Origin: Spirometra erinaceieuropaei
Taxonomy: Eukaryota > Platyhelminthes > Cestoda > Diphyllobothriidea > Diphyllobothriidae
Length of the DNA: 64,000 bases
Assembly (NCBI GenBank): GCA_902702965.1
Contig: CACRXP010000168.1
Span: 20,483-84,482, forward strand
Direction: 5' to 3'
Part shown: one piece after another, positions 3,043-35,215 of the stretch
Layout: each line of letters opens with the position of its first letter
Numbering within the stretch: the first letter of the stretch is position 1
Notes under the pieces: model-generated
What the model saw: only the letters and a program-made list of their open reading frames with translations
What the model was told of the DNA's origin: nothing
The model's database searches: none
Position numbers and translations under genes: made by a program

Positions 3043-3990
3043 TTCTAACTATGCGCTTTTACGTTCTTCGGGCCTTCATGGTGTGCAACAGAAAACGGGG
3101 CCTTCACTGAGGAGCATATCTGAAGTGAGACAGTGAAAATAACACATCATTTTGCTCTCAGCTAGTACCTATGTCTTATAGACTTGGCATTACGCAATTA
3201 TTCCGAAGAAGTTTACTGTGCTTGAGTCGAGTGTCCGCTGAGATTTCGGACTTGACTATAAAATGCCATGTCCAGGGCTCTTAACACTCAATGACGTCCG
3301 AGTGTGCTAGCTTAACATATACATATGTATTAGACAATGGAAGCAGAATACATTTTATTGCGTACATTTTCGAATCTGTAACCCCAGTTCGTCGTCCGAC
3401 GAAACGAGGCAACGTACAAAAATAGTTAACATTAAACAAGGCCTAATACTAGGTTTCTGCGGCTGGTTAAAGTGGGGACAAAACCATGACGAGGATTTGT
3501 TAAGCTCAGATTGTTTGCTAACCTCCCCCTCGTTTCACTACAGGATGTCGGTAACTAAATACTTCATGTCGTGCTCGCAGCAAGGGATGCAGGAAAATTT
3601 CGTTGAGGTCAAGAAGAGACTTTCGTGATGGTTGAACTCAGCCACGTCCAGCAGTGGCGCGTTAATATCATGTTTGGGTTATCAAACAATCTCAGTTTAT
3701 TGAGTCCTGGACATGGTTTTGTTCCAACAGAACAGCCCCTCAATTGGTGCCAGCACACAGCATCCTTCCCACTATCCGATGCCTTACCTCTGTCACCAAC
3801 GGTATCTCCCTCACTCAAACCAGCAAATATCTGCACGTCAGACACATTTGTTGTCGATGTTCAACTCAACCATCGGCACTCTCCGACGCTTTACAAACCT
3901 GACTGCTTCCTGCCGGCTGCAGCCGCCCAGGCTGTCGATAACGCCATCATTGGTACGTTTTTCATTCCCTCAAATTAACAATCCTTCTTC
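3043..3990. repeat. Duplicated block, copy 1 (uninterrupted)
   Basis: From 'cctttctaactatgcgctttt' at about 3043 onward, the sequence repeats at 4346-4640 and then continues at 5633-6200. This copy lacks the palindromic element found in copy 2 and reads 'catatacatatgtattag' at the equivalent point (about 3315-3335), so it serves as a related empty site. Open frames of 78-117 codons occur in both copies (for example 3625-3978 and 5883-6161), but the shared reading includes frame differences and no known domain. It could be part of a retroelement LTR; I cannot tell. Confidence 0.8.
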
Positions 3991-4345: not shown

Positions 4346-6200
4346 CTTTCTAACTATGCGCTTTTACGTTCTTCGGGCCTTCATGGTGTGCAACAGAGAA
4401 CGGGGCCTTTACTGAGGAGCATATCTGAAGTTAGACAGTGAAAATAACACATCATTTCGCTCTCAGCTAGTACCTATGTCTTGTACACTTGGCATTACGC
4501 ACTTATCCCGACGAAGTTTACTGTGCTTGAGTCGAGTGCCTGCTGATATTGCGGGTTTGACTACAAGATGTCATGTCCAGGGTAGTTAACACTATGTCCT
4601 TCATTCAATGACGTCCGAGTGTTCTAGCTTTGCATATACATACAGAGAGTGACCGATCTCATGAAACGTTGGCTGAAATTCTGAAATGCGTTTTCGATTA
4701 GGAAGGATTACTTGGTCGCGGTTGTAATACTGATTATCTAAGGGCATACTCTTATAACATTTAGGACTCGGCAGGGTGTCGGCTTTTAAATGCACTTCTT
4801 TTCAATCTCCTGTAGAAAGCGTGCTCGGTAAAAAATGAATGCTTAAGTAGCATACATTTTCCCGTTGATTTTCGATGGTCTTGGAAATTCGAATATATTT
4901 TATAGAAACCCTAAACAAAATATGCTTTCTTTTAGTCAATCAATAGAGAATCACGTCTTCTTTATATTTTATACTTAAGGAAGGAGTATAATTAGGTTTT
5001 AAAAGGTTTCTAATTATGAGACTTTTTAAGACCGCGAAATGTCCATTCACATAGCATCGTACCTGGCCGTTAACCACTACTCCTAATGAAATGTACAACA
5101 TGGTCCGCATCCATTGCAAAAATCTATGGACTCGGTGTGATAGCTCTTTAATGGCATAGAAAAATATGTGATTTTCTTTACGTGGAACTCATGCACCTTG
5201 TAGAGTGAAATTAGTAAGCGCTAATGTACAAATGATCAGGCTCTAATTTATTCAGTAATTAGGAAACTTTTAAAAACCTAATTATACTCCTTTCTTAAGT
5301 ATAAAATATAAAGAAGACGTGATTCTCTATCGATTGACTAAAAGAAAGCATATTTTGTTTAGGGTTTCTATAAAATATATTCGAATTTCCAAGACCATCG
5401 AAAATCAACGGGAAAATGTATGCTACTTAAGCATTCATTTTTTACCGAGCACGCTTTCTACAGGAGATTGAAAAGAAGTGCATTTAAAAGCCGACACCCT
5501 GCCGAGTCCGAAATGTTATAAGAGTATGCCCTTAGATAATCAGTATTACAACCGCGACCAAGTAATCCTTCCTAATCGAAAACGCATTTCAGAATTTCAG
5601 CCAACGTTTCATGAGATCGGTCACTCTTTGTATGCATTAGATAATGGGATCGGAATAAACTTTAATGCGCAAATTTTCGAATCTAATAGCGCAGTTTGTC
5701 GTCAGACGAAATGAGGCAATGTGCAAAAGTAATTAACATTAAACAAGGCCTAACACTAGGTTTCTGCGGATGACTAAAGTGGGAACAAAACCATGACGAG
5801 GATTTGTTGGGCTGATATTGTTTGCTGACCTCCCCCTCGGGTGTCGGTAACCAATTACTTCATGTCGTGCTCGCAGTAAGTAATGCAGGGAAATGTAGTT
5901 GACATCGAGAAAAGACTCGTGATGGTTGAACTCAGCCATGTTCAACAGTGGCGCGTTTATATCACGTTGGGGTTACCAAACAATCTGTTTATTGAGTCCT
6001 GGACATGGTTCCGTTCCAATCTAACAGAACAGCCCTTCAATTGGTGCCAGCACACAGCATCCCTCCCACTATCCGATGTCTTACCTCTATCACCGGCGGT
6101 ATCTCCCTCACTCAAACCAGCAAATATCGACACGTCAAACGCATTTGTCGTTGATGCCTAACTCAACAACTCCACCACCGACTCTCCGCAGCGACAGAGA
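4346..6200. repeat. Duplicated block, copy 2 (split by palindromic element)
   Basis: The parts 4346-4642 and 5631-6200 together match 3043-3990, with point differences. The break falls exactly at the TA flanking the inserted element. The spacing between copies (about 1.3 kb, with a SINE1 between) suggests tandem duplication. Confidence 0.8.
4643..5630. mobile_element. Palindromic TA element, complete (subfamily A)
   Basis: This 988-bp element is flanked by TA on both sides (4641-4642 and 5631-5632). It consists largely of two inverted arms of about 370-400 bp: the left arm begins 'cagagagtgaccgatctcat' and the right arm ends with its near-perfect complement. The arms are so alike that they give the same 52-residue conceptual peptide on opposite strands (4601-4795 minus and 5478-5714 plus), so that peptide is an artefact of the repeat. 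No transposase is present. TA target duplication and TIRs suggest mobilisation by a Tc1/mariner-type enzyme in trans; that assignment is inference. Confidence 0.88.
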
Positions 6201-28288: not shown

Positions 28289-29077
28289 GGTAACAATCGG
28301 GAGATGACACCGAAAAAAATCCGCCTGACCAAAGCAGCCTGTCTTACGGGACAGGTGGTAATAGGGGCTTTTATGGATGGTGGCTGGTCGGGATGTACCA
28401 TACCAGCGGACGAAAAGCCTTATTTGAACAGGTGTATGATCGAAGTTGGTCCGCTCTCCGTTCTGTTATTATAAAATGGGTCGTCAAAGGCCGTAAAGTG
28501 GTAACGGACGAGTGGAAGGCGCATAATCGTCTTCCCTCAGAAGGTTATCTACATTTCTCTGTTAACCACTCAAAGAACTTCAAGGACCCTACCACCGGAC
28601 AGCACACCAATGCCATTGAGGCATACTGGAGTAGACTGAAAAGGAAATTCCACGAGGGAGGCCCTGTATGTGGTCGAGCTGTGTGGGCTCACATAGACGA
28701 AGTACAGTATCGTGTTTGGTTTGGCCTCAATGCCATGTCCTTGACAAATGCCTGGGAACTGTTCCTGTCCCATGTTGTGCAGACTTTTCCTATTTAAAAG
28801 TTGTTTGTTATGTAATAAACTGCCATAATGCGAATGTATGCCGTATATTAAGGTGTACGTGAGTAACGATGTGGAAGTTTGGGTAACAGCGACAATCGTC
28901 CATGTAACCTCCTGCGATGTTCGTCCGGCCAGCACATGTTAGGCCATCGGGGAAAGTCCGAGTAGTGCATGAAAGTAGGCCTGCAACCGCTGATATAGCC
29001 TGAAGACGTTTGAGTCCACTGATAAAGGTATTATTTCTAGGTAACGGTTTTTTGGGTGCCATCTCCCGATTGTTACC
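28289..29077 (+). mobile_element. Merlin DNA transposon, internally deleted, complete ends
   Basis: The 789-bp element starts 'ggtaacaatcgggagatg' and ends with the inverted 'catctcccgattgttacc'. It is flanked by 8-bp near-identical duplications (28281-28288 gaaccgtt; 29078-29085 gaaacgtt). GG-starting TIRs with 8-bp duplications and an IS1595-like transposase define the Merlin superfamily. An AATAAA follows the transposase at about 28813. The transposase N-terminus is missing although both TIRs are intact, so the loss was internal. Confidence 0.9.
28321..28797 (+). pseudogene. Merlin / IS1595-type (ISXO2-like) transposase, N-terminally deleted
   Basis: The frame is open from 28321, and the first ATG at 28393 gives 134 aa. 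Counting from that ATG, 'VVTDEWKAH' carries the second catalytic Asp (D39), 'VNHSKNFKDP' follows (57-66), and 'HTNAIEAYWSRLK' carries the Glu (E76). This is the strongly conserved D...VNHS..F.DP....HTN.IE..W block of ISXO2-like DDE transposases. 'YDRSWSAL' before it fits the preceding strand. The first catalytic Asp and any N-terminal zinc-binding domain are absent, whereas family members are roughly twice as long. It therefore cannot catalyse transposition alone. The remaining frame has no stop, which suggests a fairly recent deletion. Confidence 0.92.
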
Positions 29078-31290: not shown

Positions 31291-31689
31291 TTCACACTTG
31301 CCAACCGCAATATTACTAAACTTCCCTTTGAGTAGCAGGGGCTTGGTTCAGATATTGAAACTCTAATATGATGACCGGAGTTTCATACCTCAGCCCACAT
31401 CTTCGTTTGCAGAAAAGTCACTTTCTTACGGCGTAAGTTGGTTTTCTTGCGGTCAATTTCGGTGTCGGAGTAATGCTGTTAAATATTCTCAGCGCATAAA
31501 TTGCTGGTCGCGTTTCTCAGATACCAGTCACAGTCATCTTTAAATCAGAACTGCACAAAATATGTAGGCATGACTCAACTCCAGTTGACACCCGACCCTT
31601 ACCGCTGAAATCCACAGTCAGAGTAAACTGACTCTTACACATAATCCATTTTTTTGCTTCTGTTAGCCATTACTCTCTTGCATTTATAA
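31291..31689. other. No feature recognised
   Basis: No coding or repeat signal seen. Confidence 0.5.
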
Positions 31690-31754
31690 TTAATATATAT
31701 ATATATATATTAATGGTAGTATACCGTACTCCCGACCTAGATACTTGCTAAAAG

Positions 31755-31825
31755 CCCAGACACGTGTTTCGCCGATATTCTGCCGCTGCGTGACACAGCT
31801 GCGAGGGGTTCGGCTCTTCAGTGGG
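31755..31825 (-). ncRNA. Hammerhead ribozyme, copy 1
   Basis: On the minus strand: CCCA-CTGAAGA-GCCGA...TCGGC-GAAAC-ACGT-GTC-TGGG. Helix I pairs CCCA with TGGG; helix II pairs GCCGA with TCGGC and encloses a 6-bp hairpin (GCTGTG/CGCAGC); helix III is AC/GT or the palindrome ACACGTGT. All conserved core bases (CUGANGA, GAAA, GUC) are present. Predicted cut is between 31759 and 31758. Confidence 0.88.
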
Positions 31826-32106
31826 ACCCCCAGCGTTCTCTAGCGGTTTCCGGTATATGAACTCCAGAGAATAATCAGGTGAATAATTTCAGAAATTAAT
31901 CAGTGCAGAACTTGGAGTTAAATCTCCGGGACATGACTTTTTAGGGTCAGAACCGAAATTTCAATGAACATTTGAGTCGAAGACAATCAACTACTGTGGA
32001 ATAACCACGTAATGCCCATTCTACAAACAAGTAGTACTACGAGTAGTATGAATTCCATATGGTAATGGTAGTATACCGTACTCCCGACCTAGATACTTGC
32101 TAAAAG

Positions 32107-32177
32107 CCCAGACACGTGTTTCGCCGATATTCTGCCGCTGCGTGACACAGCTGCGAGGGGTTCGGCTCTTCAGTGGG
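32107..32177 (-). ncRNA. Hammerhead ribozyme, copy 2
   Basis: Core and all three helices are identical to copy 1. The predicted cut lies between 32111 and 32110, 352 bases from the first, so a transcript through both would release a 352-nt monomer. Confidence 0.88.
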
Positions 32178-32480
32178 AGCCCCAGCGTTCTCTAGCGGTT
32201 TCCGGTATATATATGGTGAAGGTATTATACCGTACTCCCGACCTAGATACTTGCCATAGATACTTACCATATGGAATTCATACTACTCGTAGTACTACTT
32301 GTTTGTAGAATGGGCATTACGTGGTTATTCCACAGTAGTTGATTGTCTTCGACTCAAATGTTCATTGAAATTTCGGTTCTGACCCTAAAAAGTCATGTCC
32401 CGGAGATTTAACTCCAAGTTCTGCACTGATTAATTTCTGAAATTATTTACCTGATATATATATATATATAAATATGGGAT

Positions 32481-34739: not shown

Positions 34740-35215
34740 CTGAAGTAAATAAACTTTGTCTTGTTTTATTTCCGAGGAATTTAATGTTCGAAGTTTGAGT
34801 AAATTCTTCGGAACAGATTTTTTCAGGCATGGTTCATAAGAATGATATGAATATTTGAGCTAAAATCCATCAGCCACTGTGGAATAACCGCGTAATATTC
34901 ACAAACCGCCAACAGGCAGCCAGTAGCATACGATTGTGCAATTCCTTACCATATCGATAGCATAGGAGCTAGCTAAAAGCGCAGACATGCCTTAAAAAGT
35001 CTCTTCCAAAGAATTTACTCCACGTCCGCTCATTAGCTTCCTCAGAAAGTAAAAAAATCGGAGTAAAATCGGAGTTGGAAATACCGGAAAACACATGCAG
35101 AAGTCTGGGGACCCCACTGATGAGACGAACTTCTGTCTGCTACGTCAGACAGCGGCACAAGACCGACGAAACACGCCTGCCTGGACTTTTAGCTTCTACC
35201 TGTGTTGTCAGTATA
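34740..35215. mobile_element. Degenerate relative of the hammerhead repeat element
   Basis: 34855-34900 ('atttgagctaaaatc..tc', 'actgtggaataaccgcgtaa') and 34970-34990 ('gctaaaagcgcagacatg') follow the order of the 31.7-kb unit. 35095-35205 is the ribozyme portion in inverted orientation. Confidence 0.65.
35112..35190 (+). ncRNA. Decayed hammerhead ribozyme
   Basis: CCCCA-CTGATGA at 35112-35123 and GACGAAAC at 35165-35172 keep both core halves, and CTGG follows for helix I. The GTC cleavage triplet has become TGC and helix II has mismatches, so it is probably inactive. Confidence 0.6.

Follow-up and report, generated by a model that had tools for sequence, protein, structure and literature searches.

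The insertion at 31705–32455

The window analysed here, a stretch of 64,000 nucleotides of Spirometra erinaceieuropaei DNA, carries at 31705–32455 a pair of minus-strand hammerhead ribozymes (HHRs) of type I with complete cores and a spacing of 352 nt, within a composite repeat that meets (TA)n on both sides. The features are listed below, with RNA numbering that starts at the base after the HHR cleavage point; A and B are two 3′-end sites within the RNA, and PLE stands for Penelope-like element.

31689..31710, no strand: left (TA)n microsatellite, the insertion target (from sequence and repeat comparison)
31705..32210, minus: left half, the RNA-sense retrozyme copy (RNA 253–352, 1–352, 1–54)
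31755..31825, minus: HHR copy 1, with helix I CCCA/UGGG, helix II GCCGA/UCGGC, palindromic helix III ACACGUGU and predicted cleavage after GUC
31759..32110, minus: complete 352-nt monomer, between the predicted cleavage points 32111/32110 and 31759/31758
32107..32177, minus: HHR copy 2, the same 71 nt as copy 1, identical
32209..32254, minus: central extra retrozyme piece of ~44 nt (RNA 11–54; from repeat comparison)
32264..32455, plus: right half, in opposite orientation (RNA about 46–237), with its 3′ end at site B (32455)
32456..32473, no strand: right (TA)n microsatellite adjoining site B (from sequence and repeat comparison)
34777..35193: old relative, head-to-head pieces of 68–80% identity, with a decayed HHR on the plus strand near 35098–35190
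47223 minus, 48532 plus and 15756 minus: minimal PLE-type HHRs

The 71 nt that span both strands of helix I are the same in the two HHR copies (31825–31755 and 32177–32107), which as RNA run CCCA-CUGAAGA-GCCGA-(large loop II)-UCGGC-GAAA-CACGUGUC↓UGGG (arrow, predicted cleavage point), with a helix I of 4 bp and a helix II of 5 bp. The palindromic helix III belongs to a kind that is short within a single molecule and lengthens on dimerisation. A structural descriptor (helix I of 4 bp, CUGANGA, helix II of 4 bp, GAAA, helix III of 2 bp, H17) found exactly these two sites in the 64-kb window, and only 2 of 200 dinucleotide shuffles of the window contained a site (mean 0.01 per shuffle); on this count a chance origin was rejected. 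The claim of the first-pass annotation that two intact HHRs lie 352 apart was thus borne out, as was their assignment to type I, to which both the core and helices captured by the descriptor and the Rfam model that matched them, Hammerhead_1, point, although the latter stays under its gathering score. The covariance check with this model gave a divided answer: both HHRs were matched, at 31753–31827 and 32105–32179, but their 23.9 and 22.6 bits (E 0.004 and 0.011 in a 1.1-kb stretch, 0.24 and 0.66 in the whole window) lie below the gathering cut-off of 34, and a scan at gathering scores reported neither. Rfam thresholds used alone would miss these HHRs, probably because of their long loop II.

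The copy contains direct repeats of 154 nt (98% identical, spacing 352) and inverted arms of 192 nt (99% identical) at 31874–32065 and 32264–32455, for which the first pass had given the approximate limits 31880–32060 and 32270–32450. It had also placed the HHRs inside the inverted repeat; the arms exist, but the first HHR lies outside them and the second in the spacer between them, and the third retrozyme piece of 44 nt (about 32211–32254) had been overlooked. The last unit-specific base of the left half, whose 3′ end is at site A, is 31711, and the copy is of a head-to-head A/B type (A at 31711/31705, B at 32455). The idea that the arms serve to fold the opposite transcript back on itself was rejected: the arms are two divergent pieces of one insertion, A to the left and B to the right, and such a divergent architecture recurs across the retrozyme family and in PLEs. 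The inverted repeat is an insertion scar.

The monomer spans the interval between the two predicted cleavage points, in keeping with the earlier proposal of a 352-nt unit that could be released. It was also rightly said to have no open frame, its coding potential being small: the longest ATG–stop frame is of 56 aa in 31700–32480 and of 23 aa in the unrolled 352-nt circle. An RT plus GIY-YIG ORF was absent from 31700–32480 (no ORF above 56 aa), so the copy lacks the coding part expected of a PLE. The GC content of the monomer is 44%, and its circular fold has an MFE of −98.2 kcal/mol (z −2.7), equalled by 1 of 200 shuffles.

Other repeats were met in the window. Two diverged pieces on the plus strand, at 3163–3285 and 4468–4618, match the central part of the retrozyme unit (64–68%) and resemble each other in their left flanks, and a fragment of an ISXO2/IS1595-type transposase, which we take to be Merlin-like, lies at 28294–28794 (plus; Pfam PF12762, E 1e-14).

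A dispersed family with two internal 3′ ends

Comparison of the unit with its own 758.7-Mb assembly gave 2,908 first-look candidates, 40 of which were scored and yielded 116 matches; among these 40, full-length matches are mostly 97–100% identical and many are in tandem. A pattern made of 14 exact nt of the unit, 12 unspecified bases and a non-G was matched 597 times in the genome (reversed control, 4). Near-identical copies of the 352-bp unit are dispersed in the assembly, many of them in tandem arrays, with up to about 6 units in the dispersed loci retrieved (38 stretches were taken for reading) and at least 73 in one array. Other copies with a conserved core, expected at first pass, were also found: over 12 core positions in 43 insertions, 3 of 516 observations were non-consensus, against 2/808 in the helices and 133/12,426 in the rest of the unit, in segments of at least 92% identity picked by their similarity to the intact query. 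Core changes are about half as frequent as those in the rest of the unit, which is the expected direction, on a small number of events. The counts for unit identity, core, rank test and C3 cover segments of at least 92% identity and at least 90 nt, and the mapping of 3′ ends covers matches of at least 88%; loci L001–L008, being cut-outs of re-fetched places, were left out of all counts. The 43 insertions of the core set and the 43 of the 3′-end set were grouped by different rules and are not one list.

Insertion 3′ ends do not lie at the cleavage point. They fall at two internal sites, A (nt 46–54) and B (nt 237). Junctions at A typically read ACCAT, ACC(A/T)TTA or ACC(A/T)TTACCAT and then (AT)n (nt 46, 48 and 52–54), and at B CACCTGAT and then (AT)n; uncut units read ACCATTACCATATGG (or close variants) at A and CACCTGATTATTCTC at B. 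In the 3′-end set 29 insertions are in a single orientation and 14 are head-to-head, making 57 3′ ends, of which 32 lie in window A (43–60), 16 in window B (230–242) and 2 elsewhere (nt 67 and 213), the remaining 7 being unreadable (assembly gaps, 6; locus end, 1). Thus 48 of the 50 readable ends are held by windows that make up 31 of 352 positions (binomial 2e-48, for windows chosen after the data were seen). At least three TA units follow within 14 nt at 28/32 A ends and 12/16 B ends.

The 5′ ends are variable and the arrays do not consist of integral numbers of units. Among the 22 readable 5′ ends of single-orientation insertions (L009–L044), 10 lie at nt 269–333 and 7 at nt 9–31, that is, shortly past one full turn from site A and flanking the HHR. 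Because the search favoured copies with a complete unit, selection may account for this cluster; perhaps, alternatively, the folded HHR stops the enzyme.

Target-site duplications (TSDs) are mostly undetectable because they are hidden in (TA)n; by eye none was seen in loci L033, L035, L040 and L044. In L046, an insertion outside TA repeats, a 12-bp TSD (GGGACAAATAAA) surrounds a B/A pair. Younger retrozyme copies have landed within or next to (TA)n that belongs to older retrozymes or to PLE tails at L015, L035, L045, L052, C10:1736930-1737402 and C6:1874542-1874995, and retrozymes and PLEs appear to create (TA)n targets for each other.

The head-to-head insertions mostly pair unlike ends. We found 23 such pairs, of which the 15 that could be fully classified comprise 14 A/B, 1 B/B (L028, a diverged copy) and no A/A; with the measured frequencies of A and B ends, at least 14 A/B of 15 would arise by random pairing with P about 1e-4. 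Fourteen pairs came from the 3′-end set, four from match coordinates (C152, C534, C936 and C254) and five more from coordinates (C93 and C30) or from reading the sequence (L053, L054 and L055). The six coordinate-only pairs were classified from the matches without flanks, the A end of C93 and C30 being a match that reaches the end of the query. As for the pairs not fully classified, L030 and L053 combine A, and L055 combines B, with an end elsewhere; one end is in a gap or cut in L013, L017, L027 and L029; and L054 is an old copy without end assignment that may be A/A.

Units in the same orientation within one insertion differ by a mean of 0.4%, and 29 of 49 pairs are identical (30 of the 49 pairs come from two arrays, L013 and L038), whereas units from different loci differ by a median of 1.4% (rank test per insertion, 15 insertions, P 0.0006). 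Two complete adjoining units read in the large C14 array differ at 18 of 352 sites (5%), and near-identity within insertions set against this 5% is as expected from repeated copying of one circle. For the opposite halves of head-to-head insertions, 8 of 11 were closer than expected and the 3 diverged ones were not, with no overall significance for template identity (11 insertions, rank test P 0.37). A linear multimeric transcript rather than a circle as the template would be compatible with mobilisation by PLEs, and purified PLE protein indeed used unprocessed linear RNA in vitro, HHR cleavage being dispensable (described in PMC11167929). The greater likeness of units within an insertion than between loci or between C14 neighbours speaks against such a template, although a linear transcript of a young homogeneous array would look the same; we consider this variant rather unlikely, a circular template being our preferred reading.

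Penelope-like elements and related systems

A PLE RT ORF of the window was compared with known proteins; among the best 120 of 888 matches those of diphyllobothriid tapeworms rank highest, the first eight have 75–81% identity over 57–85% of the query, and the matches listed include proteins of Spirometra erinaceieuropaei and Sparganum proliferum. With a Sparganum PLE protein as query, the assembly yielded copies up to 93% identical. Pfam gave no match for three PLE-like ORFs of the window. Locus L047 holds a PLE whose body of ~2 kb is preceded, in head-to-head arrangement, by an inverted 142-nt piece; its 3′ ends lie 44 nt and ~80 nt after its own HHR cleavage point, and its TSD is given as 11–13 bp because two bases may be native. 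Across four PLE loci the longer end is shared by L048 and L047 and the shorter by L049 and L050.

In the assembly, the pattern CGAAACGTCAG-N(15–45)-(TA)6 was matched 78 times, over 41 places, and never in the reversed control. The tail TGCGATCGCCTTATCTTCTCA of one PLE subfamily, searched with a pattern that barred G eleven bases on, is followed by TA-rich sequence in 30/30 matches and by at least 3 TA units in 26; in its full form this tail extends to 43 nt past the HHR cleavage point, and upstream sequence in L051, a copy of this subfamily, matches the C-terminal portion of a PLE protein (42% over 50 residues). A single (TA)n in L052 separates a PLE tail from the retrozyme A end that faces it. 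The first pass had held that the flanks of the unit differ from PLE ends; this is right for the two minus-strand PLE HHRs of the window, one of which has (TTC)n some 34 nt, and the other (TCA)n some 30 nt, past the cleavage point, but does not extend to another PLE subfamily in the genome, which has TA repeats.

Site A, at 46–54 nt, may be set beside the PLE ends of the same genome at 43–44 nt past the HHR; site B (237) has no such counterpart. Local alignments, one tail each and against shuffles, gave no significant likeness between the 3′ and start regions of PLE and retrozyme, nor did local alignments detect significant sequence homology among PLE, retrozyme and tRNA-like tails. PLEs typically show tandem pseudo-LTRs (pLTRs) and inverted pieces (PMC3846280), and the locus might on that account be a solo pLTR remnant. 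A blastn search of L047–L051 (E 1e-3), all PLE loci, gave no match to the unit, however, and in L052 the unit matches only a separate retrozyme copy; its long helix II and paired helix III are unlike the minimal PLE HHRs of the window. We consider a pLTR remnant highly improbable and have discarded it on the blastn result.

The element is instead a metazoan non-LTR retrozyme, ordinary in its class, and its junction evidence is new. The class, as it is presented in PMC7229834, was defined by Cervera and de la Pena in 2020 with platyhelminths among its hosts; it shares with the present family a type I HHR, tandem units of 150–450 bp (here 352) in dimers to multimers, GC below 50% (here 44%), no substantial ORF, a self-paired circle (here a predicted fold) and PLEs in the same genome. 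The kinship to metazoan retrozymes named at first pass is accordingly sound as regards the type I HHR, 352-bp tandem units, 44% GC and want of a substantial ORF. Where metazoan retrozymes have TSDs they exceed 4 bp, as do the 12 bp in L046. By contrast, the relevant passages of PMC7229834 describe for metazoan retrozymes none of the fixed internal 3′ ends, (TA)n target or head-to-head pairs seen here, and we found no report of such junction mapping for retrozymes in the literature listings consulted.

It is to published PLE traits that these junctions bear a resemblance. According to the relevant descriptions, PLEs have inverted pLTRs, a 31-bp tail that is optional on one of them and TSDs of 8–10 bp (PMC3846280), to be compared with 11–13 in L047, and the Anolis PLE protein, when purified, acts on both strands by cutting and extending them, prefers AT-rich DNA and initiates reverse transcription internally, using two neighbouring sites of an AC-rich stem loop in the RNA, HHR cleavage not being required in vitro (PMC11167929). 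Head-to-head inverted copies, an optional one-sided tail, tandem copies, an internal RT start downstream of the HHR and an AT-rich target are common to PLEs, as described in these two sources, and the retrozyme, whose pairs show the PLE footprint of head-to-head copies with unequal 3′ ends (14 A/B of the 15). On the published descriptions PLEs differ in being coding, whereas the retrozyme has no protein and an HHR not of the minimal type, and its start sites are 183–191 nt apart as against 30–40; with an A–B distance of 183–191 nt and a PLE distance of about 36 nt, the parallel is one of kind, not of geometry.

Other known systems are more distant. Schistosoma W-elements with HHRs are, by their description, also flatworm repeats with type I HHRs, and the passages on them describe no junction mapping to PLEs (PMC8490949). 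Plant LTR retrozymes share an HHR-bounded non-coding unit and spread through circular RNA (PMC4918200), but differ in a type III HHR, LTRs, a primer binding site and a 4-bp TSD, and were likely mobilised by Gypsy elements according to the section on them in PMC7229834.

A second family was met in the assembly, of tandem 308-bp units with a tRNA-like part (L041:2139-3117; also L020, L031, L032 and L044). By eye it has a candidate type I HHR (GACTGG CTGATGA ... GAAA TGGCCA TT↓CCGGTC), which was not among the hits of an Rfam scan of L041 extended to E 2. Copies of the family run into (TA)n some 146 nt past that candidate cleavage point, with perhaps a second end about 38 nt past it (8/14 listed places). 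The SM-alpha satellite is a flatworm repeat with a type I HHR, and we presume that the 308-bp family may be a nearer analogue of it than the 352-bp retrozyme.

Mobilisation and the role of the ribozyme

The ribozyme sequence, the fixed internal 3′ ends, the variable 5′ ends and the non-integral tandem lengths are observed, as are the A/B pairing, the (TA)n target and a PLE subfamily with the same kind of target. Considering these together, we think it likely that the family is a non-autonomous retrozyme whose RNA circle is copied by a PLE-like enzyme from two internal start sites into (TA)n. A multimeric minus-strand transcript would be cut by its HHRs into 352-nt monomers, which, by analogy with the known class, would be closed into circles; a circle would serve as the template for a Penelope-like (RT plus GIY-YIG) enzyme that opens (TA)n DNA. 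Reverse transcription would begin inside the RNA, at site A (46–54 nt past the cleavage point) or B (nt 237), and the enzyme would travel from less than one to about six turns round the circle, with variable stop points. Both 3′ ends of the target DNA could be extended, one from A and one from B, to give a head-to-head insertion such as that at 31705–32455. Cleavage by the HHRs, circularity of the RNA and the identity of the mobilising enzyme are what we infer here. It is the insertion footprint that supports two-site internal initiation of the PLE type. Mobilisation by PLEs is already a published hypothesis, PLEs being named in PMC7229834 as strong candidates in terms of a proposal rather than a demonstration, and the retrozyme footprint supports it.

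A preference for (TA)n could arise with any AT-loving nuclease. It might be argued that a LINE-type enzyme (e.g. RTE or CR1) mobilises the retrozyme RNA, with head-to-head copies resulting from twin priming at (TA)n. Published models, as outlined in PMC7229834, allow LINEs or PLEs, and the copies of the 308-bp tRNA-like family likewise end at (TA)n. On the other hand, a PLE subfamily in the same genome has a like target and end distance. A LINE copy begins at the 3′ end of its RNA, as opposed to a pair of internal positions on a circle, and the product of twin priming has an inverted 5′ part and a single 3′ end rather than two outward 3′ ends. We regard a LINE-type enzyme as improbable and favour the PLE-like one.

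The C14 array bears on the role of the ribozyme. It comprises 73 listed unit matches over 61,845 bp (C14:1734137-1796008; L056 and L057). Apart from two breaks (68 and −156), the spacings come to within 5 bases of a multiple of 352, and since there are unlisted stretches between matches the array holds no fewer than 73 and perhaps as many as about 176 units; it ends at site B on its 3′ side and runs into an assembly gap on the other. The core base C3 reads G, G, T and G in the four units sampled. A string bearing C3G has 57 exact copies in the genome, 47 in the C14 array and 10 elsewhere, while C3 is C in 68/68 dispersed segments that cover the position, a set picked by similarity to intact queries. 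In the Anolis PLE, C3G kills the HHR, as the relevant passage of PMC11167929 has it. Local amplification thus seems to have taken place in the C14 array without the standard ribozyme core, and the sequences suggest, short of proof, that dispersal calls for a working ribozyme whereas amplification on the spot does not.

Such an array, amplified locally with C3 changed in all four units read, is what would be expected if the family were plain satellite DNA grown by unequal exchange, with the HHR as a passenger. In the dispersed insertions, however, the 3′ ends are fixed and lie at microsatellites, the 5′ ends vary and, with the selection just mentioned, C3 is unchanged. For the dispersed copies a pure satellite was ruled out on their fixed 3′ ends at (TA)n, and as an account of the family it is hardly credible, even less so than the pLTR remnant.

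Finally, within the PLE-like reading we put forward, as a possibility that we hold tentatively and less firmly than mobilisation itself, that a dimeric Penelope-type enzyme holds one 352-nt circle at two sites and that two-sided target-primed reverse transcription proceeds from A and B until the two meet; ribozyme-dead units would amplify locally and hardly disperse. If this were true, the ribozyme would be a licence for transposition. The C3-mutant C14 array beside intact dispersed copies offers a natural test of the need for a ribozyme in spread. Which enzyme moves animal retrozymes is treated as an open question in the literature, so far as the accounts cited here go, PLEs having been proposed from shared traits and co-occurrence. 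To this the retrozyme junctions add a footprint that is open to test, namely two internal starts, two-sided extension and a kind of target common to a PLE subfamily.
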